Shown: piece by piece, positions 1 through 27,176 of the stretch
Numbering within the stretch: the stretch's first letter is position 1
Layout: each line of letters starts with the position of its first letter
Source: a virus
DNA length: 64,000 bases
Reading direction: 5' to 3' (one strand)
IMG/VR virus record: IMGVR_UViG_3300024264_001555
Location: 21,248 to 85,247 of that record
The notes under the pieces: generated by a model
The model's database searches: none
Told to the model about the DNA's origin: nothing
The model's input: the letters and a program-made list of their open reading frames with translations, nothing else
Translations under genes and position numbers: made by a program

Positions 1-993
1 CTCTTCTTCGTTATCGTCAACATCCCAGTGCCAAGGTGCAAAGTATCCTGGCTCTATTTTACTAATCCAAGATCGCAATACTTTAATATGCAACCCTTCA
101 GATAGTTCATCTATAATTTTTTTAGAATAGTGGGTCTTAGGGTAATAGTTAATCCATTTAATTGCACTAGGATTAAAGTTTGCTTCTTGCCATAACTTAT
201 AAATGTCTGTATATCCCGGTGTATCTAGATTCCATTTACTTGGATCAGCAGTAATACTTACACCGTCTTGTTTTTCTAAGTCATCAATAACATTGTTCCA
301 ATCAAAAAATACACGCTCATATATTCTTTGTAATGCATTATGGGGCCATATTACATGTTCGGCTAATGCTCGTTTAAAAAATTTTCCTAAGTTTAAAGAA
401 TCGCCTTCTGACGCTTCTTTGAATCTACCACTTTCCATAGATTCTTTACCCATCATACCTTTTATTTGCTCAAAGGAAATATAAGGATCATCTTTATGTG
501 TACATGCATACATATCAAATGTTTTTAATTGTCCTTTACTATTAAAGAAAAAACAATGAGGATACAAACTAGTTTTATAATGTCCACTTTTTGTAATATC
601 ATTAATTATAGTAAAGAGTTGTTCTTGCCAATCAGGAAATTGTTTGTCTATATCACCTTCACCGTATATAATGTCATTGCAAGTTTCGTTATGCCATTCT
701 ATAAAAATTTTTTTATTGGTATAATCTATAGACAATACTTCTGGACACCAGGCATAGTTTTTAAATAATTTTAGGTATTTTAATTCTCTTTCAAAAAAGA
801 AATCCATTAGATCATTTGTAAGTACCCTTCCTTGTCCGTCTCGTTTTTGATATTCACTGGCTTTATCCCAGTGCATACATAAAATTTTTCCATCCGGACT
901 CACAAATGGAGTATATAAATTATTATTCATTGTCCTGTCAAATGATTCAGGATCAATTTTTAAAAAGTGTTTCCAGTCTTTAGTATCATACAT
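1..993 (-). CDS. Kinase-like / HxD oxygenase fusion protein, 3' part outside window
   Basis: An open frame runs from ATG at 993 to the window edge without a stop (331 codons seen), so the C-terminus is missing. Residues about 70-165 resemble a small-molecule or protein kinase fold: IFIEWHNETC, then LYPHCFFFNSKGQLKTFDMY where the catalytic loop HxDxxxxN and DFG-like motifs would lie. The catalytic Asp after His is absent (HCFFFN), so this part may be a pseudokinase. Residues about 310-331 read EPGYFAPWHWDVDD, which fits the HxD iron site (H322, D324) of aspartyl/asparaginyl beta-hydroxylase-like oxygenases and is related to the site in the upstream gene. The start overlaps that gene's stop by 8 bp (ATGTATGA), suggesting coupled translation. 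The fold assignments are inference from motifs; the open frame itself is seen directly. Confidence 0.72.
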   Translation of the reverse strand, partial: MYDTKDWKHFLKIDPESFDRTMNNNLYTPFVSPDGKILCMHWDKASEYQKRDGQGRVLTNDLMDFFFERELKYLKLFKNYAWCPEVLSIDYTNKKIFIEWHNETCNDIIYGEGDIDKQFPDWQEQLFTIINDITKSGHYKTSLYPHCFFFNSKGQLKTFDMYACTHKDDPYISFEQIKGMMGKESMESGRFKEASEGDSLNLGKFFKRALAEHVIWPHNALQRIYERVFFDWNNVIDDLEKQDGVSITADPSKWNLDTPGYTDIYKLWQEANFNPSAIKWINYYPKTHYSKKIIDELSEGLHIKVLRSWISKIEPGYFAPWHWDVDDNEEE

Positions 994-1651
994 TTAAAGT
1001 AAACTCGCTTGGTAGTATATCTTGAATATCTTCTATGTTCTCTTTTGTAGTTTTGAAATTAACGTTTCTTGGTGCATATTTGAAGTCTTGTATAAGTCCT
1101 AGTTTATTTGCTTTGTTAAGCCAAGGACTTACTCTTTGGTCAAAAATATATCTACAGTCTTCTTGATCTACTGTTTTAGGAATAGTAATACTTACTTCAA
1201 CAGGCTTGTCAAGTATTACTTTGTCAAGTAGTTTTCTTATTACTAACTGATATCTAGTCCGATTGCCAAAATTTGCCGCAGTGTGTATACTTCCTGCATC
1301 CATTTCCCACCAAATACCATCAAAATTTAAAGGCGTTAGTTTTTCAGTTTCTAAATTAATAAGAAAACAGTTATTGCCACTTAGATTAAGATGATACCTG
1401 TCATCAATATCTGCATGTGATTGATAACACTCGCCAGGTTCTAATTTAATTAATCTAGCTTCTCCCTTATCTTCTACCAGCAAAGTATTATAAATTCTTT
1501 CCCAAACTGTATCTTTAAATTCATCAGCTATAACCCATGGGTCATAGAAAAAATTTCCTGTAGGTTTGTTAATTGCAGTCCTAAAAGATTCAGAAGGTAT
1601 CGAATCTAACCCGTCTTTAAGGAAGAGAGGAGGAACATTATATTGTGTCAT
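986..1651 (-). CDS. Aspartyl/asparaginyl beta-hydroxylase-like 2-oxoglutarate/Fe(II) oxygenase
   Basis: A protein of about 221 residues from the ATG at 1651 (MTQYNVPP); an in-frame ATG nine bases upstream is the alternative. The frame stays open further upstream to 1828, but that part lies over the divergent gene and has no protein-like character. Residues 71-140 carry EPGECYQSHADIDDRYHLNL, then WWEMDAGSIHTAANFG and R131/R133. H79, D81 and H123 would form the HxD...H iron triad, with a C-terminal Arg binding 2-oxoglutarate, as in the cupin-fold Asp/Asn beta-hydroxylase family. The family hydroxylates protein side chains or small molecules; the substrate here is unknown. It is the first gene of a leftward unit with the next, HxD-containing gene. 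Confidence 0.75.
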   Translation of the reverse strand: MTQYNVPPLFLKDGLDSIPSESFRTAINKPTGNFFYDPWVIADEFKDTVWERIYNTLLVEDKGEARLIKLEPGECYQSHADIDDRYHLNLSGNNCFLINLETEKLTPLNFDGIWWEMDAGSIHTAANFGNRTRYQLVIRKLLDKVILDKPVEVSITIPKTVDQEDCRYIFDQRVSPWLNKANKLGLIQDFKYAPRNVNFKTTKENIEDIQDILPSEFTLNV

Positions 1652-1665
1652 TGTTAACATAGAAA

Positions 1666-1673
1666 TATTTATC
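1666..1673 (-). promoter_or_regulatory. Possible late-type promoter octamer in the divergent intergenic region
   Basis: The minus strand reads GATAAATA here, one base from the T4 late octamer TATAAATA. It lies in the roughly 50 bp between the divergent starts at 1651 and 1701. A start site about 6 bp downstream would leave almost no leader for the gene at 1651, so the match may be chance. No convincing -35/-10 pair was seen for the rightward genes. Confidence 0.25.
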
Positions 1674-1700
1674 TGCGCAGTTAACTCAGGTAAATACGAT

Positions 1701-2543
1701 GTGAATATACTTACAGCAACAACATACACAGAAGACTGGCTAGACACTGATAGGCCGCAGCCATTAACCGATAAAACTATAGAACGTCTAATACAAGAAG
1801 TTATGCAAAATGACTTTAGTAAAGACACTAGTGATCAAGTGTACAAAGATTTTATTAAAGAGTGCGAGGCTTGGATTCAACTAATGCCACAAAACAATTT
1901 GACAGGATTTGAAACATTCAGTCGAAAAGATATCTGTATTGGTTGTACACAATTTATAGACAATCAATATATGGTCGGAGATGTACAAACACTAAAAGGC
2001 GATTATAAATACCATCAACGATTAGGAAATACGCCTGTTACTATAGACACATTAAAAGATAACATTCCTCTTATACTTGCATTGCCGTTTCCTAGCACAG
2101 GAGACATTATACAAGACGTTGACAAATTATTAGACTTATGCTATAATATGAGTATACCTGTACACATAGACGGAGCGTGGATTACTTGTTCAAGAAATAT
2201 TAATTTTAATTTTAATCATCCTGCTATAAAAAGCGTTGCTATTAGTTTAAGCAAAGGATTAGGACTAGGTTGGAACAGAATTGGTGTGCGTTGGTCAAAA
2301 GACACTACTGATTCAATTAGCATCATGAATGACTTTCGTATGAATAATAGAGTGCTTGCAATGGTAGGTTTACATTTTTTAAAAAATACAAGGCCTGGAC
2401 ATCTTTGGAGCACTCATTTAGAAAACTATTCAAAAATCTGTAAAGATTTTAATTTAAAAGAAACTAACAGTATACATATTGCTAAAGATCGTAGTGGGTC
2501 TCCAGTAGGAGTAAGCCCATTACTAAGGTACTTAGAAAAATGA
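1701..2543 (+). CDS. PLP-dependent aminotransferase/decarboxylase-fold protein
   Basis: The likely start is GTG at 1701 (280 residues), with AGG about 10 bases upstream. The frame is open back to 1566, but that stretch overlaps the divergent gene and its sequence (ending IFICAVNSGKYD) does not look like part of this family. HIDGAW (D157) followed by SVAISLSKGLGLGWNRIGVRW (K185) matches the fold-type I PLP pattern: Asp pairing with the pyridine nitrogen, then the Schiff-base Lys. At 280 residues it is shorter than typical 350-450-residue members and may lack part of the small domain. Its stop overlaps the next start by 4 bp (ATGA). The reaction cannot be assigned; an amino acid or amino sugar is the likely substrate class. 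Confidence 0.7.
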   Translation: MNILTATTYTEDWLDTDRPQPLTDKTIERLIQEVMQNDFSKDTSDQVYKDFIKECEAWIQLMPQNNLTGFETFSRKDICIGCTQFIDNQYMVGDVQTLKGDYKYHQRLGNTPVTIDTLKDNIPLILALPFPSTGDIIQDVDKLLDLCYNMSIPVHIDGAWITCSRNINFNFNHPAIKSVAISLSKGLGLGWNRIGVRWSKDTTDSISIMNDFRMNNRVLAMVGLHFLKNTRPGHLWSTHLENYSKICKDFNLKETNSIHIAKDRSGSPVGVSPLLRYLEK

Positions 2544-3238
2544 ATTTATTTTTTGACAAGAAATGGAATAATATTGCTGTAAGTGTTAGCGGCGGTGCAG
2601 ACAGTGCATTACTATTATATCTACTATGCAAAGAAGTTACTAGTCAGACAGTTCATATTATCAATAATGTAAGATGTTGGAAAACTAAACCTTGGCAAGA
2701 ACACGATGCAGAATATGTTATAACATGGATTAGAAAAAGATTTCCAGCAATAAACTTTAAACTACATAAAAACTTTATTGCTCCTGATATTGAATACGGA
2801 GAAATAGGACCTAGTATCAAAGACGAATACGGTAAAATAGTAAGTGGTGATAATATACAAATAAGATCGTATGCAGAATACGTATGCTTTAAAAATAATG
2901 TTGATGCTTACTATAATGGTGTTACTAAAAATCCAAATGAAAACTTAGGCGGAATGATAGAACGAGATATTGAACCTACAGAAGAAAATAAACATTTACT
3001 TATAATGGAACATATGGAAAGATATGCTATTCATCCATTTCGTTTTACTAGCAAAGATAAGTTAATTGAAAAATATAAACAAGAAGACATTGTAGATTTA
3101 TTTAATATTACTAGAAGTTGTGAAGGAACGTTTGATTGGTTAGATTATAGAAACTATAAAAAAGGCGAATTAGTTCCTGTCTGTAATGAGTGCTTTTGGT
3201 GCAAAGAAAGAGATTGGGCAGTAGATAATGCAAAATAA
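2540..3238 (+). CDS. PP-loop ATP pyrophosphatase with QueC-like C-terminal Cys cluster
   Basis: 232 residues. The N-terminus has the PP-loop SVSGGADSALLLYLL (SGGxDS at residues 17-22), which binds ATP to adenylate a carboxylate or carbonyl in N-type ATP pyrophosphatases. Near the C-terminus a Cys (SCEGTFDW) precedes CNECFWCKERDWA, i.e. C...CxxCxxC followed by R and A. That is the zinc-site pattern of QueC-type enzymes. The middle does not show other QueC features I can recognise, so QueC activity should not be assumed; an amide- or nitrile-forming or thiolating step is the general expectation. It overlaps both neighbours (4 and 11 bp) in a plus-strand unit with a PLP protein and two radical SAM proteins. 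Confidence 0.75.
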   Translation: MNLFFDKKWNNIAVSVSGGADSALLLYLLCKEVTSQTVHIINNVRCWKTKPWQEHDAEYVITWIRKRFPAINFKLHKNFIAPDIEYGEIGPSIKDEYGKIVSGDNIQIRSYAEYVCFKNNVDAYYNGVTKNPNENLGGMIERDIEPTEENKHLLIMEHMERYAIHPFRFTSKDKLIEKYKQEDIVDLFNITRSCEGTFDWLDYRNYKKGELVPVCNECFWCKERDWAVDNAK

Positions 3239-4493
3239 ATCATGTACATTCTGTATGCATCCTTTTACAGGACTTGCAACACGCAGTGACGGTGCTGTCA
3301 TGGCTTGCTGTCGTAGTCATCCTGTAGGTAATATACAAGAACAAACTCTTGAAGAAATTTGGAATAACGATACTATGAAACGTATTCGAAAACAAGTTTT
3401 AAATAATGATCGTCCTAGCGAATGTGCGCCATGCTTTAACCTTGAAGATCAGGGGGTAGAGAGCTTACGACAGCGTCATATAGCAGGAGTAATACCGGAA
3501 GCTAGGGTCAACTTATACCCTGATGCATTAGACGCATTAGACGAAGATTATAGCATGCCTTTCGAAATTCCTACTATGGAAATTAAGCTCAATAACTTGT
3601 GCAATTTAAAATGTCGTATGTGTCATCCAATGGATAGTACTAGTTGGAATGACTATAAAGAAGTAGAAGAATTTTATGTGAAAGAAGGTAACTTTATGGT
3701 TGAGGAAATACGTAAGCTCAACTTAATGAAAAAACCTTATTTGGACAAATTTGATGACAATCCAAATTGGTGGAATAGTTTTGAAAAGTTATTGCCTTAC
3801 TTTAGACGTGTAGAGTTTGCTGGGGGAGAACCATTAATGGATCCGCAACATTATCGTATACTCGATATGTTGGCTCCATACGGAGAAAACATTGAACTAA
3901 AGTATGCTACTAACGGAACAACTACCGGTATTAAAGGTGGACGTACTATACACGACTATTGGCCCAAGTTTAAAACAATCGCACTTAATGTAAGTATAGA
4001 TGGTATAGGCGATAGTTACGAATATGTACGAGGCAATGGCAAGTTCGAAGACATTATGGAGAACATAAAAGTTTTTAAAACTTTTCCTAATATTACAAGA
4101 ATAGTAGGTGCTGTTGCTGTACAAGTTAGTAATGTATTAATACTAGATAAAATGATAGAACACTTTCTTAACAATATAGGAATTGTATTTTACACAAACA
4201 TGGTAAATTATCCTAGAGTATTATGTCCACAAGTATTGCCCGAAGAATTAAAGCTAGAAGCAATTAGACGATTAGAAACTATAAAATTAGATGTTCCTAA
4301 CTTTTATTATGTAAAAGAAAATCCAATACTATTAAATATTACGCTAGGTCAAATAGACGGAATAATTAATTTTATAAAAGCAAACGATCAAAGCAATTTA
4401 TGGCAAGACACTATCGAATACAATAAAAGATTAGATGCAAGCCGTAATCAGTCTTTTCTTGATGCTACACCAGAGTTTAAACCATATGCATAG
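3228..4493 (+). CDS. Radical SAM protein with N-terminal auxiliary cluster (twitch/SPASM-like)
   Basis: 421 residues. The radical SAM core has LNNLCNLKCRMCHP (C125, C129, C132, CxxxCxxC binding the SAM-ligating 4Fe-4S cluster) and EFAGGEPLM, the GGEP motif that contacts SAM. Before it lies an N-terminal Cys set typical of twitch-domain radical SAM proteins: FCMHPFTGLATRSDGAVMACC (C9, C27/28) and CAPC (C66, C69), likely binding an auxiliary cluster. The same plan recurs in the proteins at 6409-7821, 15640-16830, 16820-18037 and 18000-19310. The reaction is unknown. The start overlaps the PP-loop gene by 11 bp, and the stop overlaps the next start by 8 bp. Confidence 0.88.
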   Translation: MQNKSCTFCMHPFTGLATRSDGAVMACCRSHPVGNIQEQTLEEIWNNDTMKRIRKQVLNNDRPSECAPCFNLEDQGVESLRQRHIAGVIPEARVNLYPDALDALDEDYSMPFEIPTMEIKLNNLCNLKCRMCHPMDSTSWNDYKEVEEFYVKEGNFMVEEIRKLNLMKKPYLDKFDDNPNWWNSFEKLLPYFRRVEFAGGEPLMDPQHYRILDMLAPYGENIELKYATNGTTTGIKGGRTIHDYWPKFKTIALNVSIDGIGDSYEYVRGNGKFEDIMENIKVFKTFPNITRIVGAVAVQVSNVLILDKMIEHFLNNIGIVFYTNMVNYPRVLCPQVLPEELKLEAIRRLETIKLDVPNFYYVKENPILLNITLGQIDGIINFIKANDQSNLWQDTIEYNKRLDASRNQSFLDATPEFKPYA

Positions 4494-5391
4494 CATAGAA
4501 AATCGTTGGGGACACCATACCAGTATTCATGTCGAATGGAATATTGGCAAACGCTGTAACTTAGATTGCGCTTACTGTCCTGCTGAAATACACGATAACT
4601 TTAGCCCTCACACTGATCTAAATGTTATGGTTAACACAATCTATGAATTGGAAAAGATTAATAAACCAATACGACTAAGTTTAACAGGAGGCGAACCTAC
4701 TGTACATCCTAAAATTAATGATATCTTAGAATGTGGAAGTCAACGACTACAGCGGCTAAGTGTTACTACAAACGGATTGCGTTCGCCAGAGTGGTATATT
4801 AAACAACCTGTAGATCAATGGGTATTTAGTTTGCACTTTGACAACGAACATAGCCGAAGAGCAGGCGAAAATATTATTAGATATAGTCAGTTACTAGACA
4901 TGGAGGGCAAGGATACGCTATTTCAAGTTAACTTAATGTGTCATCATGAATATATGAATCAAGTACGCGATGTAGCATCATTGCTTGAAAGTCATCGTAT
5001 TCCGTATGTGTGTAGACGAATACGATGGACTGATGCTGACGATCGAGAATGGTTTGACGATATGAGGTATAACGGACAAGACTTAGAATGGATACTTAGT
5101 AAAACTGCAACTGTGAAGGCAAACTGCGTCATAGACGGAAAAGATATGATACATGCTAATGATATTATTAAACATAAACTAAATCAATTCGAGGGCTGGA
5201 CTTGTAATGCAGGTTTAGAAAGTCTGATGATCAATTGGGACGGCGAGGTTCATCGTGCTACTTGTAGAGTAGGCGGTAGTCTAGGAAATATTTATAATGG
5301 TACGTTTAAACAACCTTTAGAACCAATTACTTGTACACGTAAGTGGTGTACTTGTGCTGCTGATATTCCGTTAACTAAAGTTTCTTCTTAG
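4486..5391 (+). CDS. Radical SAM protein with C-terminal Cys-rich (SPASM-like) tail
   Basis: 301 residues from ATG 4486 (MHSIENRWGH). The frame is open to 4435, but that part overlaps the preceding gene. The core motif is NIGKRCNLDCAYCPAE (C24, C28, C31) and the SAM-binding motif is SLTGGEPTVHP. The C-terminal part has FEGWTCNAGLESLMINWDG, then ATCRVGG, then TCTRKWCTCAADIPLTK, enough Cys for one or two auxiliary clusters. The proteins at 5375-6412 and 11412-12422 share this FxGWxCN...C...CxxxxC plan, so the three form a subfamily distinct from the N-terminal-cluster type. The 3' end overlaps the convergent neighbour by 17 bp. Confidence 0.88.
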   Translation: MHSIENRWGHHTSIHVEWNIGKRCNLDCAYCPAEIHDNFSPHTDLNVMVNTIYELEKINKPIRLSLTGGEPTVHPKINDILECGSQRLQRLSVTTNGLRSPEWYIKQPVDQWVFSLHFDNEHSRRAGENIIRYSQLLDMEGKDTLFQVNLMCHHEYMNQVRDVASLLESHRIPYVCRRIRWTDADDREWFDDMRYNGQDLEWILSKTATVKANCVIDGKDMIHANDIIKHKLNQFEGWTCNAGLESLMINWDGEVHRATCRVGGSLGNIYNGTFKQPLEPITCTRKWCTCAADIPLTKVSS

Positions 5392-6412
5392 TTAGATGTG
5401 TTTCAGGAGCACAAATACAATTAAACTTTGAACATATAGTTGGCTTTATTTCCGTATCAAATTTTTGTTCGAAGTCGTTGTCAAGTATGTTGTAGTAATA
5501 ATTCAAACCGTAAAGAAACTCTCCACAAGATCCTTTAAGTGTTCCGTCCCAATTAATAAAGATACTATCTACGCCAATGTTGCAACTCCATCCTTTAAAA
5601 TTGTTCCAATTTTTATTAATGTAAGTTCCGGACTCTGCTCTTACCTTTTTATTGTTTTCTAGTGTAGCAACACTTTCAGTATATCTAATTTCACCGTTTG
5701 CTATAAGATTTCTGTTATTCCAAAACCATTTAAAATTAGGTAATTGTTTTATACCCCATTTCATATACTTTTTCTGTTCCGGAGTATACTTTAAATCATC
5801 AGTGGTTATTATTCTAATGTCGTTTAACGTAGTTGATTCCGTTTCTATTACTTCTGCTACTGTAACAAACCATTTGTGTTTGCTGTTCCTTTTTAAATAT
5901 TCTACAGCATCTACACAATCGTCCCAACAAGTAGGATCCATCAAAACTTTTACAGTAATTTTCTTTCCTAAATCATACATAGCATCTGCTACACCAATTG
6001 TGTGATCTAAGTTTGCCTGAGCAACATGATGTGTCAAATGAATATTGTCTACGAGGTGTCCTTTTTCTTTCCACCACCGCAATGTTCGTGACCCATTAGT
6101 TATAAGACTAATATAAACATTGTGATCTTTTTTAATTTCTTGTACGAATATATCAAGATCTCTCCAAAGTGTAGGCTCTCCCCCCATAATTTCAATATGT
6201 GTTTTTGTTTTTCCTAACTGCTCTTTATAAACAGTTAACAAATGTTTGAAGTTTTTTATAATAAGATTTATATCTTTAGGGCTAGGATAGTCCCCGTCAT
6301 TACTACCTGGAAAACAGTATCTGCATTTAAAATTACAAACGTTATTAGGCATCCATCTAATATCTAGATAAGAGTCTTCTCTAGTAGATTTTATCTTAAT
6401 AGGGGTTGTCAT
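5375..6412 (-). CDS. Radical SAM protein with C-terminal Cys-rich (SPASM-like) tail
   Basis: 345 residues. Core motif MPNNVCNFKCRYCFPG (C26, C30, C33) and EIMGGEPTLW. The tail has FKGWSCNIGVDSIFINWDG and ICSKFNCICAPETHLTK, closely parallel to the convergent gene at 4486-5391 including the final LTK. The two look like an old duplication facing each other tail to tail. It is the last gene of the long minus-strand operon in this window; its start overlaps the upstream stop by 4 bp. The substrate is unknown. Confidence 0.88.
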   Translation of the reverse strand: MTTPIKIKSTREDSYLDIRWMPNNVCNFKCRYCFPGSNDGDYPSPKDINLIIKNFKHLLTVYKEQLGKTKTHIEIMGGEPTLWRDLDIFVQEIKKDHNVYISLITNGSRTLRWWKEKGHLVDNIHLTHHVAQANLDHTIGVADAMYDLGKKITVKVLMDPTCWDDCVDAVEYLKRNSKHKWFVTVAEVIETESTTLNDIRIITTDDLKYTPEQKKYMKWGIKQLPNFKWFWNNRNLIANGEIRYTESVATLENNKKVRAESGTYINKNWNNFKGWSCNIGVDSIFINWDGTLKGSCGEFLYGLNYYYNILDNDFEQKFDTEIKPTICSKFNCICAPETHLTKKKL

Positions 6413-7821
6413 AGCAAATGTTTCAATTCTGGAAATACTTCTTTTGCATTTAAGCCTCTAATTTTATCAAGGTTATTAACATAATCTTTAAAGTCAGGTA
6501 ATAAGTGTGAATGATCTTCTGCGTCGATAAATCTTAATATACCTTCCCAACGTTTCCAACCATAAGGATTTTCGTGCCAAAAGTTATCATCTTGTGTATA
6601 ATTGTCCCAAAGCCACTGTTTAAACTCTGCAAACTGTTCACGTATTTCTTGTTTGTCTTTTTCAGGTAATATCCTTGCACTTAAAAATGTAGGAATGTAC
6701 AGTAAATGTAGATTAATTATTCCGCCACCTGCTTCATAGATATCTGTTTTAAACTTATTAATTTTCTTATAGCCTTTAGTAAGTTTCCATTTTGCAAAGT
6801 GAACAATATGTTTTACATTTAATGCCTGTACTGCACAGGCAATATGACAATGTATATGATCCGGAGTATTATCCATTAACTCTAAACTACGCTCTACATC
6901 TTTCCACTTAGTAGGGTATCTAATATAATAGTTACGTTCGTCGACTGCATCTAAACTAAATGCAAATCTAACTTGTTTAAATTCTGTCCAAATATCGATC
7001 ATATCTTGATTTACAAAGACACCATTAGAGTTATATCGTAAACATATATTTTTAGCATATCCTCTTTTAATTATTTCTAATAAAAATTTTCTATGTTCTT
7101 TAATCATTAAAGGCTCACCGCCAGCAAAATACAACTGTTTAATATGTGGTATTTGTTCAAAAATTTCTTCCCAAAGTTCTGGCTTTTCGTACCATTTATT
7201 ATTAAACTTTGTTTTATCCCAACTTATTTGTCGTATAACTGTTTGACTGTTTGAGGTTGCTATAATCTTTTCGTAGTCTTCCATCCATCGACTGCTATCG
7301 TGCGGACTACACATTACACACTTCAAGTTACAAGTATGACCTAATCTTAAATCAAAATATTGTATTTCGTGCGGAATCTTTCCATCTTCGCTTGTATCTT
7401 TTATTAGCTGTGCAAAATCCAACCCATCGTTGTTCCATTCATGTAATTCCCAGAGACGTTTACTTACAACTCCGTTTGATTCTTCTTCAAAGCACTTTGT
7501 ACAACTAGCAGGTATTTTACCTTCTATCATTGTTTTTCTTACACTACACATGTAGTCATTATTAAATGCTTCTTTTAATGAATCTTTACCAAAGTTTGCA
7601 GGCTCACCATTTTCCATTTTAACAAGACCAACTTCGTGATCTCCTGTATGAGCACCTGATGCATTTGTTACACAGCAAAGTCTAGCATCACCGTTAGGTC
7701 TTGTTGCTATATGTATCCAAGGAAGTGCGCAAAATGTATAAGATCCTGTTTTTTCAAAAACATCTCGCTGTCCTTTTCCCATTCGACTATTTTCGTCTTG
7801 TAGCCAATATAAATCTTTCAT
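6409..7821 (-). CDS. Radical SAM protein with N-terminal auxiliary cluster (twitch/SPASM-like)
   Basis: 470 residues. The N-terminal Cys set is FCALPWIHIATRPNGDARLCC (C31, C49/50) and CTKC (C107, C110). The radical SAM core starts LRLGHTCNLKCVMCSPHDSS (C164, C168, C171) with YFAGGEPLM downstream. A plan of FCxxPWxHxxxxPxG...CC, CxxC, then CxxxCxxC is shared with four other proteins in the window. These N-terminal cysteines probably hold an extra iron-sulphur cluster that positions substrate or shuttles electrons. Overlaps of 4 bp on both sides indicate operon membership. Confidence 0.88.
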   Translation of the reverse strand: MKDLYWLQDENSRMGKGQRDVFEKTGSYTFCALPWIHIATRPNGDARLCCVTNASGAHTGDHEVGLVKMENGEPANFGKDSLKEAFNNDYMCSVRKTMIEGKIPASCTKCFEEESNGVVSKRLWELHEWNNDGLDFAQLIKDTSEDGKIPHEIQYFDLRLGHTCNLKCVMCSPHDSSRWMEDYEKIIATSNSQTVIRQISWDKTKFNNKWYEKPELWEEIFEQIPHIKQLYFAGGEPLMIKEHRKFLLEIIKRGYAKNICLRYNSNGVFVNQDMIDIWTEFKQVRFAFSLDAVDERNYYIRYPTKWKDVERSLELMDNTPDHIHCHIACAVQALNVKHIVHFAKWKLTKGYKKINKFKTDIYEAGGGIINLHLLYIPTFLSARILPEKDKQEIREQFAEFKQWLWDNYTQDDNFWHENPYGWKRWEGILRFIDAEDHSHLLPDFKDYVNNLDKIRGLNAKEVFPELKHLL

Positions 7822-8900
7822 AGCTCTTCCCTACTTGTAAATTGGTCCTGCGGCGTAGAAAACAATTCAGGTTGTATTCCGCAAGCTCTGCCGCAAGTAA
7901 TTAATTTTTTATCCGTCCAATAACTATTCCAAACATTTTGATATTCGTCTGAATTAATAATATCCTTCAACGGTTTTTTCTTTACGTCTAATGCGTCTAT
8001 ACCACCTAGTGATTTAACTAAGTCAAAATATTCTGCATAAATTGCTTCTCGAATTTCATGTAATTCGTGTTCCAAATCTTTAGGATGATACGGAATCATT
8101 GCAAGCCAACAACACGGAAATACATGCCCATAAGAATCTATGTAAACTTCTTTTACATGTTTTGCATAACAATTAATTTCTGTTTTTTCTAAAATACTTT
8201 TATAATTTCCAATAATATCGGTATCAACAATTTTAATAGTTGAATGTTGACTTGGTTCTAAATAATAATCAATATTACCTTGTTTATCCAAGACTTTAAA
8301 TTTAGGTTCCATTAACCACCGCGAACTATCTTTCATTGTAAAGTATTCAAACCCTATATCAATTGCTCGATGTCTTGCTTCTTCTACTTGATGTTCGTTA
8401 TGTTTAAATCTTATATAAGCCCATTCTGCAATGCCGCCGGCATCTATAAATGCTTTTGCATTTTCGATTATTTTTTCGTAACTAGTACCAATTCTATAAA
8501 TTGTTTGTGTATCTTCTAATCCATCTATAGCAAAAACTACTCTATGACTATTAGGCATAACTTTTGCTAAGTTTGTCCACCATTCTTTGCTTCTTAAACT
8601 ACCATTAGTATGTATAGTAATTTTGATATCTTTTTTAATAGAAGTAGTATACTCGACCATTTCGAGCAATTGGTCGTTCAATAATGGATCGCCATAGTTT
8701 CCACAAAAGTAAACATTTTCAATTTGCTCTATAACTTCTGGAGATATAATTTTTTTATAGTCATCAAGTGTCCATCCACGTTTATTAATATTAGGATTTT
8801 TAAGTCCTCCGTGAATATTTCTAGTACACATAGGACAACTTGCTTGACAGTTATTTGTAATTTCTAAATGGATTTGTTTAAGTTGATTAAAGTTTATCAT
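7818..8900 (-). CDS. Radical SAM protein, ITNxCQASCPMC subfamily
   Basis: 360 residues. The core motif lies near the start, LEITNNCQASCPMCTRNIHGG (C18, C22, C25). The C-terminus has a SPASM-like set: NCYAKHVKEVYIDSYGHVFPCC and a late TCGRACG. It is paralogous to the adjacent gene at 8910-9998 (shared CQASCPMCxRNIHGG, FCGxxGxP, FALDG/FAIDGL and PCC elements). Substrate specificity is unknown. The gap to its upstream neighbour is nine bases. Confidence 0.87.
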   Translation of the reverse strand: MINFNQLKQIHLEITNNCQASCPMCTRNIHGGLKNPNINKRGWTLDDYKKIISPEVIEQIENVYFCGNYGDPLLNDQLLEMVEYTTSIKKDIKITIHTNGSLRSKEWWTNLAKVMPNSHRVVFAIDGLEDTQTIYRIGTSYEKIIENAKAFIDAGGIAEWAYIRFKHNEHQVEEARHRAIDIGFEYFTMKDSSRWLMEPKFKVLDKQGNIDYYLEPSQHSTIKIVDTDIIGNYKSILEKTEINCYAKHVKEVYIDSYGHVFPCCWLAMIPYHPKDLEHELHEIREAIYAEYFDLVKSLGGIDALDVKKKPLKDIINSDEYQNVWNSYWTDKKLITCGRACGIQPELFSTPQDQFTSREEL

Positions 8901-8909
8901 TATATCTAC

Positions 8910-9998
8910 TTATCGCTCTACCTGATCTTCGACCCGTGTTAATGGAGTATTTTTTCCGCATAATACAATACATGCAGGAGATGTTTTGTTACTCCATTCT
9001 CTTTGCCAAATAGTTTGCCATTTAGGATCATTAACAATATTTTCTAAACCTTTTTTTGCATCTAATGCTTGTAATCCGCCAAGTTCTTCTACAATTCTAT
9101 AAGTTTCCTTTTGTGCAATTTTTCCTACATCTACAATAGATGAATGCTTATATACATCATACTTTTTATATAAAACTTCATCATAGTTTGCATATAAAAA
9201 ACTACCAAGCAGACAGCACGGTAATACTGTAAAGTTAGCATCTATATAAATTTCTTTATCGTGTAACACCATACAATTAACTTTTTCTGCTTCAGGCCAA
9301 GATTTGTAAGATAACAAATCATTTTTATCAAAGAACTTGATAGGTGTAACATCTGGCTGATCTAAATAATGTGTTACATTGCCTTGTTTATCTAATACTG
9401 GAAAGGTATCTCCAAATCGTTTGCTGTTTTTAACATGAAACTCTGAAAACCCAAACTTTCTAGATATAATTTCTGCGTCTTTTACTTGTTCTTGGTTATG
9501 TTTAAATCTTATAAACATCCATACTGCATATCCACCGGCTTTTGCAAATGCTTGTGCATTTTTAGTAATCTTATCATAGTCTGTTCCGACTCTATATAAA
9601 CTATGCGTATCACTAAGTCCATCTAGTGCAAATTCTACCTTGTGACGCACTGTAAGCGCCTGTGCTAGGCGTTTCCACCAGCCTAGTGTTCTTGTGCTAC
9701 CGTTAGTAAAAATAGCAGTTTCTAGTTCAGGATTTTGCTGTTTAATATAAGCACACATGCTAATTAAATCATTATTAACTGTAGGTTCTCCAAAATCTCC
9801 GCAAAAGTCTATACGCTTTAATTGTTGTAAAATTTTTGGTGTAAATATTTCTTTAAAATCTTCTAATGTCCAATCATGACTAGTTAGATTAGGATTTTCT
9901 ATACCGCCGTGAATATTCCTTAAGCACATTGGACAGCTAGCTTGGCAACGATTGGTTATTTCGACTTGTGCCTTTTCTAAATTTTCAAAGTTAAACAT
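8910..9998 (-). CDS. Radical SAM protein, ITNxCQASCPMC subfamily (tandem paralogue)
   Basis: 362 residues. EITNRCQASCPMCLRNIHGG holds the CxxxCxxC cluster (C18, C22, C25). YIDANFTVLPCC and ACIVLCG near the C-terminus are candidate ligands for auxiliary clusters. Similarity to the next gene downstream runs along the whole length, so the pair arose by tandem duplication. The start abuts the stop of the SGNH-hydrolase gene with no gap. Confidence 0.87.
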   Translation of the reverse strand: MFNFENLEKAQVEITNRCQASCPMCLRNIHGGIENPNLTSHDWTLEDFKEIFTPKILQQLKRIDFCGDFGEPTVNNDLISMCAYIKQQNPELETAIFTNGSTRTLGWWKRLAQALTVRHKVEFALDGLSDTHSLYRVGTDYDKITKNAQAFAKAGGYAVWMFIRFKHNQEQVKDAEIISRKFGFSEFHVKNSKRFGDTFPVLDKQGNVTHYLDQPDVTPIKFFDKNDLLSYKSWPEAEKVNCMVLHDKEIYIDANFTVLPCCLLGSFLYANYDEVLYKKYDVYKHSSIVDVGKIAQKETYRIVEELGGLQALDAKKGLENIVNDPKWQTIWQREWSNKTSPACIVLCGKNTPLTRVEDQVER

Positions 9999-10817
9999 CT
10001 ACTGCCTGTCTTTTATTTTTTTGTATATATAATTTGCGTACTCTATATGATATTCTTCTTTAGGATGCGTGTATGTATGCAATTGACTAGAATCATCCCA
10101 ATTAACTAAATCATTAAAAGAAAAGTAGTTATCTAATATAGAATTAAATTCTTTAACTGAGTTATATGCATTTAATAAATTGTATTCTTTAAACTTGTTA
10201 ATGTTATTGTGTAACTGAGTTAAAAACGGGGTGAATGCAAAAACTTGTAAAATATTATGTTTTTTTGATAGCATTTCTAGATACTTTATATCTTTAAACC
10301 ATCGAAACATATCGTTAAAATCGTTAGATACATGTAAAACATAATCTTTATGAAACGATTTCGACGGCCATCTTAATCTGTGCGATAGCTGTGAATTCCA
10401 CTCTTTTGGTAGGCCGCCTGGACAACAATGATGTTTTTTGCATTCTTTGTCAAGATAGAACCATCTCGAACTTTCTGTATGAGCAACAATTATAAGATCA
10501 GTAGGTTTTATAAAACCTCTACTAATATCTTCCTCTAAAAAATATATAGACGACTCACTATTACTTCCTGGATAAGCTCTATTAACTACGTCAACATTAA
10601 GTTTGTTTGCTAAATGCTGCGGCCAGGCGTGATTATGTTCTCTACTGTCAATATATTCAAGAGAGTATTTGCTTTCAATTTTGTCTCTCCAGAATTCGAC
10701 TCCCTTTGCTTTTATTTTATTTATTTCAACAAAATTTAAAGATGGCATTAGTTCGTAATCTGCAAGTTCAAATCCTGAAGTAATACTACACCCATATGCT
10801 ACTATTCTATTATACAT
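9999..10817 (-). CDS. SGNH/GDSL-family hydrolase-like protein
   Basis: 272 residues. The N-terminal VAYGCSITSGFEL fits block I with Ser11 as nucleophile (GCS in place of GDS). AYPGSNSESS (G84, N86) fits blocks II/III, and LHTYTHPKEEYHIEYANYI near the end offers the catalytic His (H251, in THP). The family includes esterases and carbohydrate O-acetyl-esterases, and related folds act as acetyltransferases in glycan tailoring. Among sugar-transferase genes, addition or removal of acyl groups on a glycan is plausible but inferred. The start overlaps the upstream methyltransferase stop by 8 bp. No signal peptide is seen, so it should act in the cytoplasm. Confidence 0.68.
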   Translation of the reverse strand: MYNRIVAYGCSITSGFELADYELMPSLNFVEINKIKAKGVEFWRDKIESKYSLEYIDSREHNHAWPQHLANKLNVDVVNRAYPGSNSESSIYFLEEDISRGFIKPTDLIIVAHTESSRWFYLDKECKKHHCCPGGLPKEWNSQLSHRLRWPSKSFHKDYVLHVSNDFNDMFRWFKDIKYLEMLSKKHNILQVFAFTPFLTQLHNNINKFKEYNLLNAYNSVKEFNSILDNYFSFNDLVNWDDSSQLHTYTHPKEEYHIEYANYIYKKIKDRQ

Positions 10818-11415
10818 TCTTCTTTTTACCTATAATCATATAACGAGTATACTTAGGGGTTTTAAATTCGCCTCTCCAGTATGGTTTGATTTTACTCATG
10901 CGCATAAAGTCATCTTGATCAGTTGCACAACGAATGTGCTCGTCTAACTCAAAGTAGTTATTGCTTTGTATTACAAATAGCGCATCGTCTGGTTGAATGT
11001 CTAACCACTGTTCGTATTGTTCTTGCGTAATGTGTTCGCAGCTTGTGTTAATAACAATGTCAGCAGGTTCTGTGTAAGTACACATGTCTGCGGTTACTGC
11101 ATCAAATCTTCCTGCTATTTCATAGTTTTTATTAACTGTGTATGCAGTTTCTTGGCAATCTTCATCAATGTCAACACTTGTAATATGCTCAATGCTTAAA
11201 CTGCTATTAAATAAGATACTAGAAAGCACACCATTCCAGCCGCCGTATATTACAATACGAGCATCATCGTCAACGTAGTTTACACGCAGTGCGTCAGCAA
11301 GCCATATCTTGCTGTTGACTTGTCCTTTCCAGAAGCTTTCAAGTGTACGGTATTTGTCATCGCTGTTGCGAATTGCATCCATCCAGAATAATACATCTTG
11401 TATATCTATTTTCAT
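10810..11415 (-). CDS. Class I SAM-dependent methyltransferase-like protein
   Basis: 201 residues. The Rossmann-fold hallmarks are ARIVIYGGWNGVLSS (motif I, residues 52-66), ITSVDIDEDC (acidic residues at the end of beta2 that bind SAM ribose), FDAVTADM, and DIVINTSCEHI (motif IV region). An N-terminal helical segment (WMDAIRN..YRTLESFWKGQV) precedes the fold. The target is unknown; the neighbours suggest a sugar, peptide or small molecule rather than DNA, and no DNA-recognition domain is visible. It overlaps the upstream radical SAM gene by 4 bp. Confidence 0.7.
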   Translation of the reverse strand: MKIDIQDVLFWMDAIRNSDDKYRTLESFWKGQVNSKIWLADALRVNYVDDDARIVIYGGWNGVLSSILFNSSLSIEHITSVDIDEDCQETAYTVNKNYEIAGRFDAVTADMCTYTEPADIVINTSCEHITQEQYEQWLDIQPDDALFVIQSNNYFELDEHIRCATDQDDFMRMSKIKPYWRGEFKTPKYTRYMIIGKKKNV

Positions 11416-12422
11416 ATTTTTCTCTTTGGTAGTTTACTATCTGCACTGCTTACACAGCTAGGAGTAACGCACTTACGTGGTGCTTTAAACAGCTCAAATC
11501 CGCCGTCTAACGTGCCTAAGGGTTCATCGTGGCAACTGTAGCTGCGTTTAACTTCATTACTACGTATAACGCATCCTTGATAGCCTGCATTACATTCCCA
11601 TCCTTTAAACTTATTAAATCCAAATGCATTAAAGCGTTCTGCTTGATCTATGTAGTACGTTTTTCCAGTGCTGTCTTCTAATTCAACTTGCAGTAAAGGA
11701 ATTATTCTTTTAAATTCATCTGGGATTTTTTGTGGGAACCCTTTTTGCATGGTTTCGATTTCATTGGTTGTGTAACCATGTACCACACTACTGGCGGTAG
11801 GATCGGACTGGGGTTTGAGAGTGACATTAATACCTCTGGCGGCAAATCGCTCCAAGCGTCCGTAAAGCTCTTCGAACATTTCCGGAACCATAACTTGATT
11901 GATTGTAACATAAACACCTTCTTTCATAAGTTGAAGACATTTGTCTCCAAATTCTTGTTCATTAGCAAACTCTGCGTGATAGCTCGCTGTTATACTTCTA
12001 CGTTGCAGAGTGCTTGTAGTTTCTAACCACTTGTTCCACCATTTGCTTCCCGGGCTAAGATTTGTTGTCATGTGGATACTTTGGTATTCGGGTGTTGCAT
12101 CACTGCAATAATGCTCTATGAGCTCCCCAAAGTATTTATATGCCGTAGGCTCGCCTCCACTAAAACTAAAATGGAAGTCTGTAAATCCGTTATCTCTTGC
12201 CTGTCGCTTTATTTCAGTTAATGCAGTTTTGTATGTTTCTAATGTTTGATGGTCGGGTGTACTACTTCTTGCATAAGGCCAGCAGTAGCTACAATTGTAA
12301 TTACAAAATCTCGCAAGGATCCAAGACACTGTAAACAAGTTAGTGTCTAACAAGGTTTTTTGTCCAAACTTTGTTATGTTGTCAAAAGGTATGTTTTGAA
12401 AATTCTTCATATAACCAATCAA
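11412..12422 (-). CDS. Radical SAM protein with C-terminal Cys-rich (SPASM-like) tail
   Basis: 336 residues from the ATG at 12422; a second Met at codon 5 (12410) is equally possible. Core motif ILARFCNYNCSYCWPY (C40, C44, C47) and FSFSGGEPTAY. The tail reads FKGWECNAGYQGCVIRSNE, SYSCHDEP and KCVTPSCVSSADSKLPK, the same arrangement as the proteins at 4486-5391 and 5375-6412. One Cys of the terminal CxC pair is replaced here (SCVSSAD). The start lies inside the 3' end of the repeat-containing glycosyltransferase gene. Confidence 0.87.
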   Translation of the reverse strand: MIGYMKNFQNIPFDNITKFGQKTLLDTNLFTVSWILARFCNYNCSYCWPYARSSTPDHQTLETYKTALTEIKRQARDNGFTDFHFSFSGGEPTAYKYFGELIEHYCSDATPEYQSIHMTTNLSPGSKWWNKWLETTSTLQRRSITASYHAEFANEQEFGDKCLQLMKEGVYVTINQVMVPEMFEELYGRLERFAARGINVTLKPQSDPTASSVVHGYTTNEIETMQKGFPQKIPDEFKRIIPLLQVELEDSTGKTYYIDQAERFNAFGFNKFKGWECNAGYQGCVIRSNEVKRSYSCHDEPLGTLDGGFELFKAPRKCVTPSCVSSADSKLPKRKI

Positions 12423-14332: not shown

Positions 14333-15643
14333 TCAATTGTTATTCATGTCAACAAAAAGTGATAAAAATTTAGGCTGCATGCGTCTTGTTAAAAATATTT
14401 CACGATTCTTTTTTAAAAACGGTATTGCTTCTGCTATTAATTCGCTTATATCTTCACTACTAAGACTTTTTAGATATTCAATATTTTTTCTAATATGCTC
14501 TGCACGGTTTGTAGGATCGTACATTGTATCATAATGTTGATTAATTAATGCATTGCAACTAAAATATCCTTGATTATTAAGGTAATTATGGACCGACGAA
14601 CATCCTATAATAGCCGCAGGGTGTCCGATATATATGTGTTTCCATACGTTAGGTCCTAACGTAAATGATGCTACCTCTTGTTTATACTGAGTATTAACAT
14701 CAATCTCAATGTCATCACACAATATAGATAATACTGTATCTTGGTATTCTTCGATATTGTAATTCATTAACGTATTGTTAACTTCTTGCGAATAATTGTC
14801 TATATGTTTTAATAATCCTTGTTTAGATTCTTTTTCAAGTTGCGAAGATCTAGGATTAACTAGCATAGGCGATATTGTTTTAGATAAATTATAGTTACTT
14901 GAATTTAACTTAACATACCCGTCATCAAGTAAGTTATTATGAGCCAACTCAAGAAATACAGTTACATCTGTCTGAAAATAATTTGTAAACGAAGTATTGT
15001 AAACTTTTTTAGGGTTCCAATTTTCGTGGTCAATAGTCAAATCTTTTGATATCTTTAAAAATGGATCTTCACATATCCACGATAATGACGACAATCCACT
15101 TCGAACTTTATAAACTAATTGCATATATATTTGCCACCAATCTATACCAAAAACGTTTTTAGTGTCTAACAACGTCCTATATACATTATTTAATTCTCCT
15201 AGCACAATGTATATTTGGCTTTTTTTAATACCAAGTAATTCTACTATTTCGTCAACTCTTTGCTTTAACTGTTCAATAATAAAAGAATTACCGGCTAGCC
15301 TCGGAGCTAAAATTAATAATTTTAACCTTCCCTTTTTTATTAAACTTTTAGCTCTAGGGGATATTAGTGCTGTTAAGTTTCTATTCCAGCCGTAATAAGA
15401 ATAATTTAATTCAATAGGATAATATAAATTTTTAATATTTTTAGGCTTGCCTGACACAAGGTTTACTACTGTTTTATTTGCTTTCATTACAAAATAAAAC
15501 GTATTAAACTTTGCTATAGGCATCTCTGCTCTATAATCTTTAACGTATGGAATTCTCCGAGCGTCTTTAGATATTTCAAAATTAAATGTACCGTTAGGTG
15601 CCGGAACGCCGTCAATTATATTATCGTAATATAAATTTATCAT
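14333..15643 (-). CDS. Uncharacterised protein, glycosyltransferase-like C-terminus
   Basis: 436 residues, not firmly recognised. The C-terminal stretch FTLGPNVWKHIYIGHPAAIIGCSSVHNYLNNQGYFSCNALINQHYD, then a repeat of acidic and Arg residues (PTNRAEHIRKNIEYL), resembles a conserved element of many phage and bacterial glycan genes: a K.....G.P.I..G....L...GY.....I.E.YD...N...R pattern. The middle contains LLILAPRLAGNSFI and QIYIVLGELNN, consistent with a Rossmann-like unit. A GT-B-type sugar-transferase role is inference. The stop precedes the next start by 16 bases, and the 5' end overlaps the upstream radical SAM gene by 4 bp. Confidence 0.5.
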   Translation of the reverse strand: MINLYYDNIIDGVPAPNGTFNFEISKDARRIPYVKDYRAEMPIAKFNTFYFVMKANKTVVNLVSGKPKNIKNLYYPIELNYSYYGWNRNLTALISPRAKSLIKKGRLKLLILAPRLAGNSFIIEQLKQRVDEIVELLGIKKSQIYIVLGELNNVYRTLLDTKNVFGIDWWQIYMQLVYKVRSGLSSLSWICEDPFLKISKDLTIDHENWNPKKVYNTSFTNYFQTDVTVFLELAHNNLLDDGYVKLNSSNYNLSKTISPMLVNPRSSQLEKESKQGLLKHIDNYSQEVNNTLMNYNIEEYQDTVLSILCDDIEIDVNTQYKQEVASFTLGPNVWKHIYIGHPAAIIGCSSVHNYLNNQGYFSCNALINQHYDTMYDPTNRAEHIRKNIEYLKSLSSEDISELIAEAIPFLKKNREIFLTRRMQPKFLSLFVDMNNN

Positions 15644-22117: not shown

Positions 22118-22611
22118 AATGTATATTTAAAATTCTGTGTTGTATTGCTAATAGCAATTTGTTTTGCACCATTACGTATGTGAAAGTGTGTTGCCATTGG
22201 CGTTAACGGTGATAGGGTTACTAGTGTTTCAATATCATCACGAGACTTCATTAAGTCGCCTATTTTGTGTATTATCTCTTTACCAGCGCCACGCTTACGA
22301 CTCCATACTGTATAAGCAACTGCCGTATTAACATCATTTTTAAAATGAGCATTTTGACTCATTAAGTCTAACTCTTTTACACTTTTAGGTACATCATTAG
22401 TATATGCAATGCAGATAATACCTTCAATTTCATTTTCGTGCTTTAGTCCGTATATCTTACGTCCATAACTAGTACGCCATTCTACATCAAGCTCTGGACG
22501 TACTGGATCTTCTGTTACATCAATATCATCTAGCTCTACTAGTTCTGTTTTCTTTACCCAGCCAAAAAAGTTGTCAATTGACGCTTTAAATTTTTTTACA
22601 TTTAAATTCAT
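22114..22611 (-). CDS. GNAT-family N-acetyltransferase-like protein
   Basis: 165 residues. The GNAT core appears as IEGIICIAYTND (beta4 region), NTAVAYTVWSRKRGAGKEIIHKIGDL (motif A, acetyl-CoA pyrophosphate loop R/K-x-x-G-x-G/A) and ETLVTLSPLTPMATHFHIRNGAKQI (motif B). The N-terminal 45 residues are charged and not part of the fold. Acetylation of an amino sugar or amino acid would suit the sugar-transferase neighbours, but this is inferred. ATGA overlaps at both ends. Confidence 0.62.
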   Translation of the reverse strand: MNLNVKKFKASIDNFFGWVKKTELVELDDIDVTEDPVRPELDVEWRTSYGRKIYGLKHENEIEGIICIAYTNDVPKSVKELDLMSQNAHFKNDVNTAVAYTVWSRKRGAGKEIIHKIGDLMKSRDDIETLVTLSPLTPMATHFHIRNGAKQIAISNTTQNFKYTL

Positions 22612-27173: not shown

Positions 27174-27176
27174 GTA

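Follow-up and report, generated by a model that had tools for sequence, protein, structure and literature searches.

The only description of a radical-SAM-rich phage that we found in the open-access literature is that of TARA_ERS488813_N000010, a T4-like environmental virus with 12 radical SAM genes, which the available text of PMC5332604 treats solely as a matter of Fe-S cluster metabolism. Like the phage analysed here, it is large and T4-like and combines numerous radical SAM genes with Fe-S genes, but its description in that text includes no cassette of PP-loop, PLP and hydroxylase genes. Vibrio phage K566 (OZ196521) likewise encodes N-twitch radical SAM enzymes, their genes alternating with others that by eye resemble glycosyltransferase genes, but it has no match to the PP-loop protein or the hydroxylase, and its identity to rS4 is ~23%. 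For the individual enzymes, the closest described systems are QueC, the defence enzymes Cap9 (type IV CBASS) and QatC, and the caprazamycin beta-hydroxylase Cpz10, which acts on an aminoacyl nucleoside in a nucleoside-antibiotic pathway (available text of PMC9814697). Cap9 links a nucleobase to a protein N-terminus, according to the accessible part of PMC11996544.

Layout of the island

The window, that is, the whole stretch of DNA analysed, comprises 64,000 nt of IMG/VR record IMGVR_UViG_3300024264_001555 (record positions 21,248-85,247), the parent phage record being 85 kb long. Window positions 1-5391 encode an HxD hydroxylase, a kinase-like/oxygenase fusion, a PLP protein, a PP-loop protein and two radical SAM enzymes (Table 1), and these genes belong to the island that holds the 13 radical SAM matches of the whole parent record. 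Records carrying the conserved block of chemistry genes, which represent large uncultivated phages, reach 353 kb, and any record may be a fragment. A previous sequence-only reading had placed two HxD-type sites in overlapping leftward genes, and PLP, PP-loop and two radical SAM genes on the rightward arm; both arms were confirmed, and the HMM searches that it called for identified the latter two, rS1 (passing NF033640) and rS2 (Pfam), as radical SAM enzymes.

Table 1. Features of the island in the window, with positions, strands and basis of assignment.
Feature	Position	Strand	Basis
Kinase-like domain (residues 1-232) fused to HxD oxygenase domain	1..993, cut by window edge	-	Protein-kinase fold match
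oxy, AspH/Cpz10-type Fe(II)/2-oxoglutarate hydroxylase (predicted)	986..1651 (1660 if upstream ATG)	-	Pfam, PDB profile and conserved residues
Divergent start region with T4-type late-promoter motif GATAAATA	1652..1700; motif 1666-1673	- (motif)	Motif match
PLP fold-type I aminotransferase-like protein, optional module	1701..2543	+	GTG start 1701, stop 2543
QueC-like PP-loop ATPase, remodelled substrate site, optional module	2540..3238	+	Fold and motifs
rS1, N-twitch radical SAM enzyme	3228..4493	+	NF033640 330 bits, cut-off 170
rS2, radical SAM enzyme, C-terminal cysteines	4489..5391	+	Pfam Radical_SAM E=8e-10
rS3, radical SAM enzyme	5375..6412	-	Pfam E=1e-12; in 48/80 rS1 loci
rS4, N-twitch radical SAM enzyme	6409..7821	-	NF033640 390 bits, cut-off 170; in 78/80 rS1 loci
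rS5, radical SAM/SPASM enzyme	7818..8900	-	Pfam; in 78/80 rS1 loci
rS6, radical SAM paralogue of rS5	8910..9998	-	Pfam E=3.5e-8
Putative methyltransferase (MT)	10810..11415	-	Pfam Spermine_synth E=0.0085, below cut-off
rS7, radical SAM enzyme	11412..12422	-	Pfam E=1.1e-11; in 56/80 rS1 loci
rS8-rS12, five more radical SAM genes	15640..22117	-	Radical_SAM matches in G000, 3/5 above Pfam cut-off
Glycosyltransferase-like genes	22608-23507, 24054-24893, 24886-25740 (span 22608..25740)	-	Named by eye

On sequence grounds, the ORFs of this region are real genes and not chance, since 105 of 114 matches in an IMG/VR pattern scan encode PP-loop relatives and the catalytic residues are invariant, being unchanged across homologues that are mostly 40-75% identical to the window sequences. 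The glycosyltransferase-like genes adjoin fibre-like genes, in a gene order that is identical in G003 and G009, and retrieved weak matches only (phrog_14775, E=0.015; glycogenin, E=0.11). Fibre-like proteins are encoded at 26145-28097. PHROG and PDB searches with the putative methyltransferase returned no match. Because the calls for these two kinds of gene have weak or no profile matches, the link to surface glycans is thin.

A near-constant core of radical SAM enzymes and a hydroxylase

The most conserved gene is rS1 (67-74% identity in the rS1 alignment), whose CxxxCxxC motif is present in 109/109 sequences. Across 80 rS1-seeded loci, rS2 was found in 80, rS4 and rS5 in 78 each, oxy in 74, the MT family in 67, rS7 in 56, the PP-loop and PLP genes in 54 each and rS3 in 48, with some of the absences stemming from contigs that end near the slot. 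Among the 75 non-redundant loci with enough flank, rS1, rS2, rS4 and oxy were present in 75/75 and rS5 in 73/75. At the level of gene content, these counts show a near-constant core of rS1, rS2, rS4, rS5 and one oxy gene, usually with rS7 and the methyltransferase-like gene.

The PP-loop and PLP genes differ among loci in both presence and position: 34 of the 75 non-redundant loci have both, 26 have the PP-loop gene only, 11 the PLP gene only and four neither (Fisher p=0.38). Given this variable presence and independent assortment, the two genes are, as far as their distribution tells, optional modules that modify the pathway and do not define it; the assortment could mean that they carry out separate reactions. 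If the genes of the island were independent auxiliary genes with no common pathway, such variability would be expected, but the near-constant co-occurrence of rS1, rS2, rS4, rS5 and oxy disfavours that reading, which we consider highly improbable. With regard to the sequence-only reading, independence from the radical SAM genes is thus contradicted for oxy, found with rS4 in all 75 loci, and its view of a linked tailoring cassette with radical SAM enzymes holds, with the qualification that the PP-loop and PLP genes are optional.

The hydroxylase and the fusion protein

The listed GTG ORF for oxy, running to 1828, overruns into the divergent gene and was therefore corrected, giving a protein of 221 aa. 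Residues H79, D81, H123 and R133 are invariant in 107/107 distinct sequences and correspond to the HxD...H iron ligands plus an Arg, R133, which we take to be the 2OG-binding Arg of the AspH/Cpz10-type fold. The window protein matches Pfam Asp_Arg_Hydrox (PF05118) with E=0.0012 and 19.1 bits, below the gathering cut-off of 22.6, and 20 of 39 family members reach E<=0.01, the lowest value being 1.4e-5. Its best PDB profile match is Cpz10 (E=6.6e-15), with the HxD and the distal H...R aligned; the two differ in their surrounding pathway genes, and the phage enzyme is a predicted hydroxylase. The gene is single-copy in 17/17 IMG/VR records searched. An exact-pattern scan of IMG/VR retrieved only two relatives, yet 75 of 81 loci carry oxy, so the low yield reflects a method that misses a diverged gene.

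The overlapping fusion gene, whose full length is 399 aa with 206 bases extending past the window, carries the second HxD site (WHWD...H, read by eye) and matched no Pfam family over threshold. Since the catalytic Asp of the HRD motif is replaced in 35/35 sequences (S in 25, T in 4, A in 3 and N in 3), its kinase-like domain is probably a pseudokinase.

The kinship of oxy with an enzyme of a nucleoside-antibiotic pathway raises the possibility that the cassette yields a small molecule that diffuses freely, a phage natural product altering the host or its competitors. Related clusters in other records would suit such a role, as they hold flavin halogenases (E=2e-83 and 8e-31), a carbamoyltransferase (E=3e-51), class-III aminotransferases (E=8.5e-48 and 1.8e-44) and TauD oxygenases. 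Nevertheless, no NRPS/PKS-like scaffold synthase or exporter was recognised by eye or in selected Pfam scans, and fibre-like genes have the same late-promoter motif as oxy, so that we regard a free product as rather unlikely.

Alternatively, the enzymes may modify a peptide or a virion protein, either in a RiPP-like manner or in fibre or baseplate maturation. The N-twitch and SPASM enzymes do resemble peptide maturases (WgkB, PapB and AlbA are among the sub-cut-off matches), fibre-like genes adjoin the island, and Cap9 offers a precedent for attaching a nucleobase to a protein. However, every peptide-maturase model scores far under its cut-off, and the listed short-ORF families occur in <=10/80 loci, a count obtained with a gene caller that favours long ORFs and suppresses overlapping small ones. 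We judge this alternative to be quite unlikely.

The optional PLP and PP-loop proteins

The PLP protein gave a partial match to the NCBIfam valine-pyruvate transaminase model (E=8e-6), and no relevant Pfam match was obtained for any of 39 family members. Its D157 (pyridine Asp) and K185 (Schiff-base Lys) are invariant in 74/74 sequences and, in an hhalign comparison with E. coli AvtA, coincide with the motifs that hold the AvtA catalytic residues; for AspC, the Lys motif aligned. The protein fits fold type I, and an aminotransferase-like role is predicted for it.

In the PP-loop protein, the SGGxDS ATP-binding loop and four cysteines (C194, C215, C218 and C221) are conserved in 46/46 sequences. 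Its structure model (pLDDT 91) matched QueC 3bl5 best (Z 15.2 over 179 residues), followed by QueC 2pg3 (13.9) and Cap9 9nto (13.4). One orthologue, its neighbours being included in the frame, exceeds the Pfam cut-off (24.8 bits). A second member of the family is L201:1920-2621. Because PF06508 overlooks some true members (it had 0 matches in G001 despite the presence of the gene), absence was re-tested with a profile of the PP-loop family itself.

The phage protein shares with QueC the fold, the SGGxDS loop and a CxxCxxC Zn-type site, but the preceding cysteine is more distant, C(x)20CxxCxxC as against C(x)8CxxCxxC in QueC. Aligned with E. coli QueC by hhalign, the PP-loop profile scores poorly (probability 7.8%, E=0.0044), which makes the following residue mapping provisional. 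The VPxRN motif of QueC, with the essential R99, aligns to VSGDN in the phage family (D104 in 44/46, N in 2/46), and the YPDC motif, whose Y and D bind deazaguanine, aligns to GM-x-E/T-R (M139 in 41/46, R142 in 46/46). The YxQxHxxE motif is replaced in most of the 46 sequences by RCWKTKPWQ after strand 2, a position assigned by eye outside the hhalign match. As the residues that recognise 7-carboxy-7-deazaguanine thus appear to be replaced, the nitrile reaction of QueC itself is unlikely for the phage protein, and the nitrile formation proposed in the sequence-only reading is not upheld. The protein fits amide-forming chemistry on a substrate other than 7-carboxy-7-deazaguanine.

Similar to the phage protein, Cap9 combines the fold and the PP-loop with a Cys site, and in QatC the cysteines are likewise widely spaced, C(x)19CGxCxxRR, with an HP motif in addition. 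In contrast to the phage protein, Cap9 has a conserved CDG-binding Y and D, and the PP-loop gene differs further by its place in a phage and in a radical SAM cassette. No CD-NTase, QatB or other Qat gene was recognised by eye among the neighbours of the PP-loop gene.

We also considered the PP-loop protein as a phage QueC, with the genes belonging to 7-deazaguanine DNA modification. Its best fold match is indeed QueC, and a QueE-like gene is found in 12/15 records, FolE in 5/9 and a QueD-type gene in 5/9. However, neither the Y and D that recognise CDG nor the essential R99 is conserved (by the same provisional mapping), QueE is kept in records without the PP-loop gene (G009, G010 and G011), the TGT family is found in 0/15 records, and the gene adjoins rS1 among the radical SAM cassette genes, unlike QueC, and not queE or folE. 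The replaced CDG-binding residues, the retention of QueE and the missing TGT led us to reject this canonical QueC role as the main reading, and we consider it very unlikely.

Late-promoter motif and distribution

The T4-type late-promoter motif was found at the 5' end of 61/102 distinct oxy genes, compared to 1/102 in the ORF bodies used as a control; the sites carry NATAAATA, and oxy and the fibre-like genes have the motif in common. The motif suggests that the island is expressed late, and a role in early anti-defence was set aside because the motif points otherwise.

Searches of 50,697 phage records retrieved no match to the first 25 kb of the window and no relative of the PP-loop protein, the PLP protein or oxy; rS4 matched three of these records at 23-26% identity. 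In a collection of bacterial genome contigs, none of 114 pattern matches for the PP-loop profile was a relative, and three of 290 for the rS1 profile were. One of these three comes from a Gammaproteobacteria MAG, on a contig of 108 kb that bears the island in divergent form and is itself probably of phage origin; this hints at a gammaproteobacterial host for such phages.

Proposed pathway and its meaning

We find the case evenly balanced that the genes form one late-expressed, modular tailoring pathway of large T4-like phages, with decoration of a surface as the weaker part of the proposal. The halogenases, the carbamoyltransferase and the class-III aminotransferases of related clusters also speak for such a pathway. 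A single amino-acid-derived (aminoacyl or peptidyl) substrate would be shared by the radical SAM and hydroxylase enzymes, and the PLP protein would swap or alter the amino group of that substrate. The PP-loop protein would use a QueC-type fold, with a substrate site that no longer fits 7-carboxy-7-deazaguanine, to adenylate a carboxylate with ATP, which ammonia or an amine would then convert into an amide. More speculatively, the product may be used late, most likely in chemical decoration of the virion or the infected-cell surface, and the optional modules might give phages differing chemotypes. HxD hydroxylation, PLP chemistry, PP-loop activation and radical SAM chemistry, as put forward in the sequence-only reading, are plausible gene by gene, Cpz10 being the closest to oxy. 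On these data, a small molecule, a peptide and a glycan are all candidate products. The results suggest that the virus produces an as yet undescribed tailored molecule or decoration, with a putative product and a putative destination (virion, cell surface or free).

Tentatively, and with less confidence than an even chance would warrant, we propose a dedicated late combinatorial pathway in which a radical SAM/hydroxylase core takes QueC-like, PLP, halogenase and carbamoyltransferase plug-ins and makes virus-specific hypermodified amino-acid-derived compounds, the QueC-like protein being a new non-deazaguanine, ATP-dependent amide-forming family. Radical-SAM-rich phages, so far carriers of Fe-S auxiliary genes in the available text of PMC5332604, would here have a modular pathway that is conserved and comprises a defined core, optional modules and a late-promoter motif, and the QueC-like scaffold would gain a virus-borne branch beyond tRNA/DNA modification and the defence enzymes Cap9 and QatC. 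If so, viruses would perform multi-step specialised chemistry of their own, from which novel radical SAM and PP-loop reactions could be drawn and through which receptor or immune diversification might come about.

Gene content of the island

The window comprises bases 21248-85247 of an IMG/VR phage record that is 85,247 bases long and yields 13 radical SAM matches over its whole length. Every gene named in the sequence-only reading was found (see table). The second leftward HxD site lies in a gene that overlaps the Fe(II)/2-oxoglutarate hydroxylase gene (oxy) and crosses the window edge, so that its full reading was taken from the parent record, and the rightward arm runs from the PLP protein through the QueC-like PP-loop ATPase into two radical SAM genes. 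The best named-phage relatives of the baseplate-wedge protein are large phages, among them Sinorhizobium phage Phosso and Salicola phage SCTP-2.

Features of the window, its parent record (G000) and related loci (L numbers)
Feature	Location	Strand	Support
Kinase-like domain fused to HxD oxygenase	window 1-993		
oxy hydroxylase	window 986-1651	leftward	
PLP protein	window 1701-2543	rightward	
PP-loop ATPase	window 2540-3238	rightward	
Genes resembling fibre or virion genes	window 27177-28097, 28127-29674, 33769-34383		by eye
Virion structural protein, 5266 aa	window 34405-50205		phrog_10938, E=5e-206 over first 1666 residues
Baseplate-wedge protein	window 50205-53696		~35% identity to best named-phage relatives
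QueE-like gene	G000:3-944 (left end of record, left of window)		
TauD-type oxygenase	G000, upstream of window		Pfam
AspH-type oxygenase	G000, upstream of window		Pfam
Four small tandem genes, HxD...H...R patterns	upstream of window		by eye
Kinase-like gene	G000, upstream of window		
GNAT-like gene	G000, upstream of window		by eye
Radical SAM gene with HMPTM-type zinc ribbon	G000, upstream of window		
Radical SAM protein with HMPTM-type zinc ribbon	L082:17048-18091		PF23545, E=1.3e-14
Tryptophan-halogenase family (flavin-dependent)	L196:11680-12927, L197:14641-16248		Pfam, E=8e-31, 2e-83
Carbamoyltransferase and class-III aminotransferases	L196:627-2099, L195:8899-10062, L197:16857-18029		Pfam
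Amidinotransferase-like	L193:14200-15258		by eye; weak arginine deiminase match, E=0.0026
Amidinotransferase-like	L197:18012-19049		by eye; no match
NifU/IscU-like	L196:10585-11668		Pfam, E=1.6e-55
Two A-type-carrier-like ORFs	L196:10585-11668		by eye
Further PP-loops	L201:1920-2621, L202:3990-4586		over PF06508 cut-off; 32.8 and 28.6 bits

Near-constant and optional genes

PP-loop relatives accounted for 105 of 114 pattern matches in IMG/VR, and the best 80 of the 105 formed a PP-loop-seeded set. To avoid selection by the PP-loop, the radical SAM gene rS1 was also used as bait, and the best 80 of 198 loci were kept. In these rS1-seeded loci, some of which end close to rS1, the radical SAM genes rS2, rS4 and rS5 were present in 80, 78 and 78 of 80, oxy in 74, a methyltransferase-like gene in 67, a further radical SAM gene (rS7) in 56, and PP-loop and PLP in 54 each; by hand count, 37 carried both PP-loop and PLP, 17 PP-loop alone, 17 PLP alone and 9 neither. 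Pooling gave 166 rS1-bearing loci, 100 without near-duplicates and 75 with sufficient flank. The sequence-only reading had made its pathway depend on co-occurrence with radical SAM genes, and this association was borne out: rS1, rS2, rS4 and oxy were each present in 75/75, and rS5 in 73/75. PP-loop was present in 60/75, a set in which PP-loop and PLP frequencies are biased upward because PP-loop- and PLP-seeded loci were included; the two occurred independently (Fisher p=0.38). The counts therefore describe a near-constant core with optional modules, which usually occupy the slot between oxy and rS1. Exactly one oxy copy was found in 17/17 IMG/VR records searched whole. Among ten whole records, the PP-loop was not found in four (G009, 353 kb; G010; G011; G016), and G017 held only a divergent relative.

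The PP-loop protein

SGGxDS, four cysteines and RxWKxxPWQ are common to 46 aligned PP-loop sequences. The AlphaFold model (mean pLDDT 91.4) matched QueC 3bl5 best (Z 15.2, rmsd 3.8, 179 residues), followed by a tied group of QueC 2pg3 (13.9), MesJ (13.9) and Cap9 (13.4). A 2026 survey of PF06508 defines a true-QueC signature (PMC13329287), and in Cap9 and QueC the deazaguanine is held by the Y and D of YPDC (PMC13279940). Aligned to E. coli QueC, VPxRN is replaced by VSGDN and YPDC by GM-x-E/T-R, a mapping that is provisional because the hhalign match was weak (probability 7.8%, E=0.0044); on inspection, no YPDC stretch was seen in the 46-sequence alignment. The fold match and replaced motifs therefore indicate a QueC-like fold that is not a canonical QueC. 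Nitrile formation, which had been proposed beside amide formation, is unlikely from 7-carboxy-7-deazaguanine (CDG), given the replacements in this provisional alignment.

QueE-like genes occur in 12/15 records of these phages, and FolE and QueD-type genes in 5/9 related records each; a TGT-family match was found in 0/15. A role for the PP-loop in deazaguanine DNA modification is unlikely, because G009-G011 carry QueE without the PP-loop and the motif is altered. The protein may make Cap9-like use of deazaguanine. The natural inference is that it would adenylate a substrate other than CDG and form an amide.

One of the two further PP-loops in related records adjoins three TauD-like genes, one confirmed by Pfam.

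Hydroxylase, PLP protein and kinase-like domain

The oxy profile (39 sequences) matched Cpz10 at E=6.6e-15, with HxD and distal H...R columns aligned, and L-proline cis-4-hydroxylase much more weakly (E=0.0014). In caprazamycin biosynthesis, Cpz10 uses H106/D108/H154 to hydroxylate an aminoacyl-uridine intermediate at the beta position (PMC9814697). This match is the best clue to the oxy substrate class and points to an amino-acid-like moiety.

Relevant Pfam matches were found for 0/39 PLP members. In an hhalign alignment to AvtA (E=3e-4), the pyridine-Asp motif falls at HIDGAW and the Schiff-base Lys motif at SLSKG; AspC aligns at SYSK. The Asp and the Lys are both invariant (74/74).

The kinase-like domain is modelled as a protein-kinase fold (pLDDT 94.8), with Bud32 as closest sequence relative (E=5.8e-5), and is probably a pseudokinase, because none of 35 sequences has the catalytic Asp in the HRD column. 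It is encoded separately from the neighbouring HxD oxygenase in related loci, and the window's fusion suggests that the two work together.

Surroundings of related islands

Related islands in other records carry halogenase, carbamoyltransferase and aminotransferase genes (see table), an NAD epimerase gene and TauD oxygenase genes, all Pfam-supported. In the window, G003 and G009, glycosyltransferase-like genes separate the island from fibre-like genes; a glycan product is only putative, because the profile matches behind this naming are weak or absent. Among small ORFs that could encode a conserved precursor, none was listed in over 10 of 80 loci.

Amidinotransferase-like genes were seen by eye at two loci. 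The Fe-S assembly genes beside the G003 island plausibly support the many radical SAM enzymes. A pairing of radical SAM and HMPTM-type zinc ribbon, as in L082, is known from tetraether-lipid-type chemistry.

Late-promoter motifs

The window has 12 copies of NATAAATA, the T4-type late -10 motif. Four lie just upstream of gene starts (43 starts), places that make up 3.06% of positions; the genes concerned are oxy and the three resembling fibre or virion genes. The motif stands at the oxy 5' end in 61/102 distinct genes, versus 1/102 in ORF bodies. It nearly abuts the start codon, as in CATAAATATTTCATG (window 1652-1673 and related loci), suggesting that oxy mRNAs are nearly leaderless.

Novelty and proposed role

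In PMC5332604, 12 radical SAM genes of one T4-like virus from the environment are classed under Fe-S metabolism; no other related description was found in the open-access literature searched. No relatives of PP-loop, PLP or oxy were found among 50,697 phage records, and the bacterial genome collection likewise gave none for the PP-loop. The radical SAM cluster of Vibrio phage K566 is distantly related and lacks both PP-loop and oxy. A divergent island lies on a contig, probably phage, of a Gammaproteobacteria MAG (MED685; L204), a weak clue to a gammaproteobacterial host.

The cassette is real and conserved, and is undescribed within the open-access literature searched. Its genes are best read as a tailoring pathway, late and modular, whose product would derive from an amino acid. 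We give this reading, with surface decoration as the most likely use, roughly even confidence; a free natural product is unlikely, if slightly less so than peptide modification. Judged from the promoter motifs, expression would be late, which suits a product that virions or release require more than a part in early takeover.
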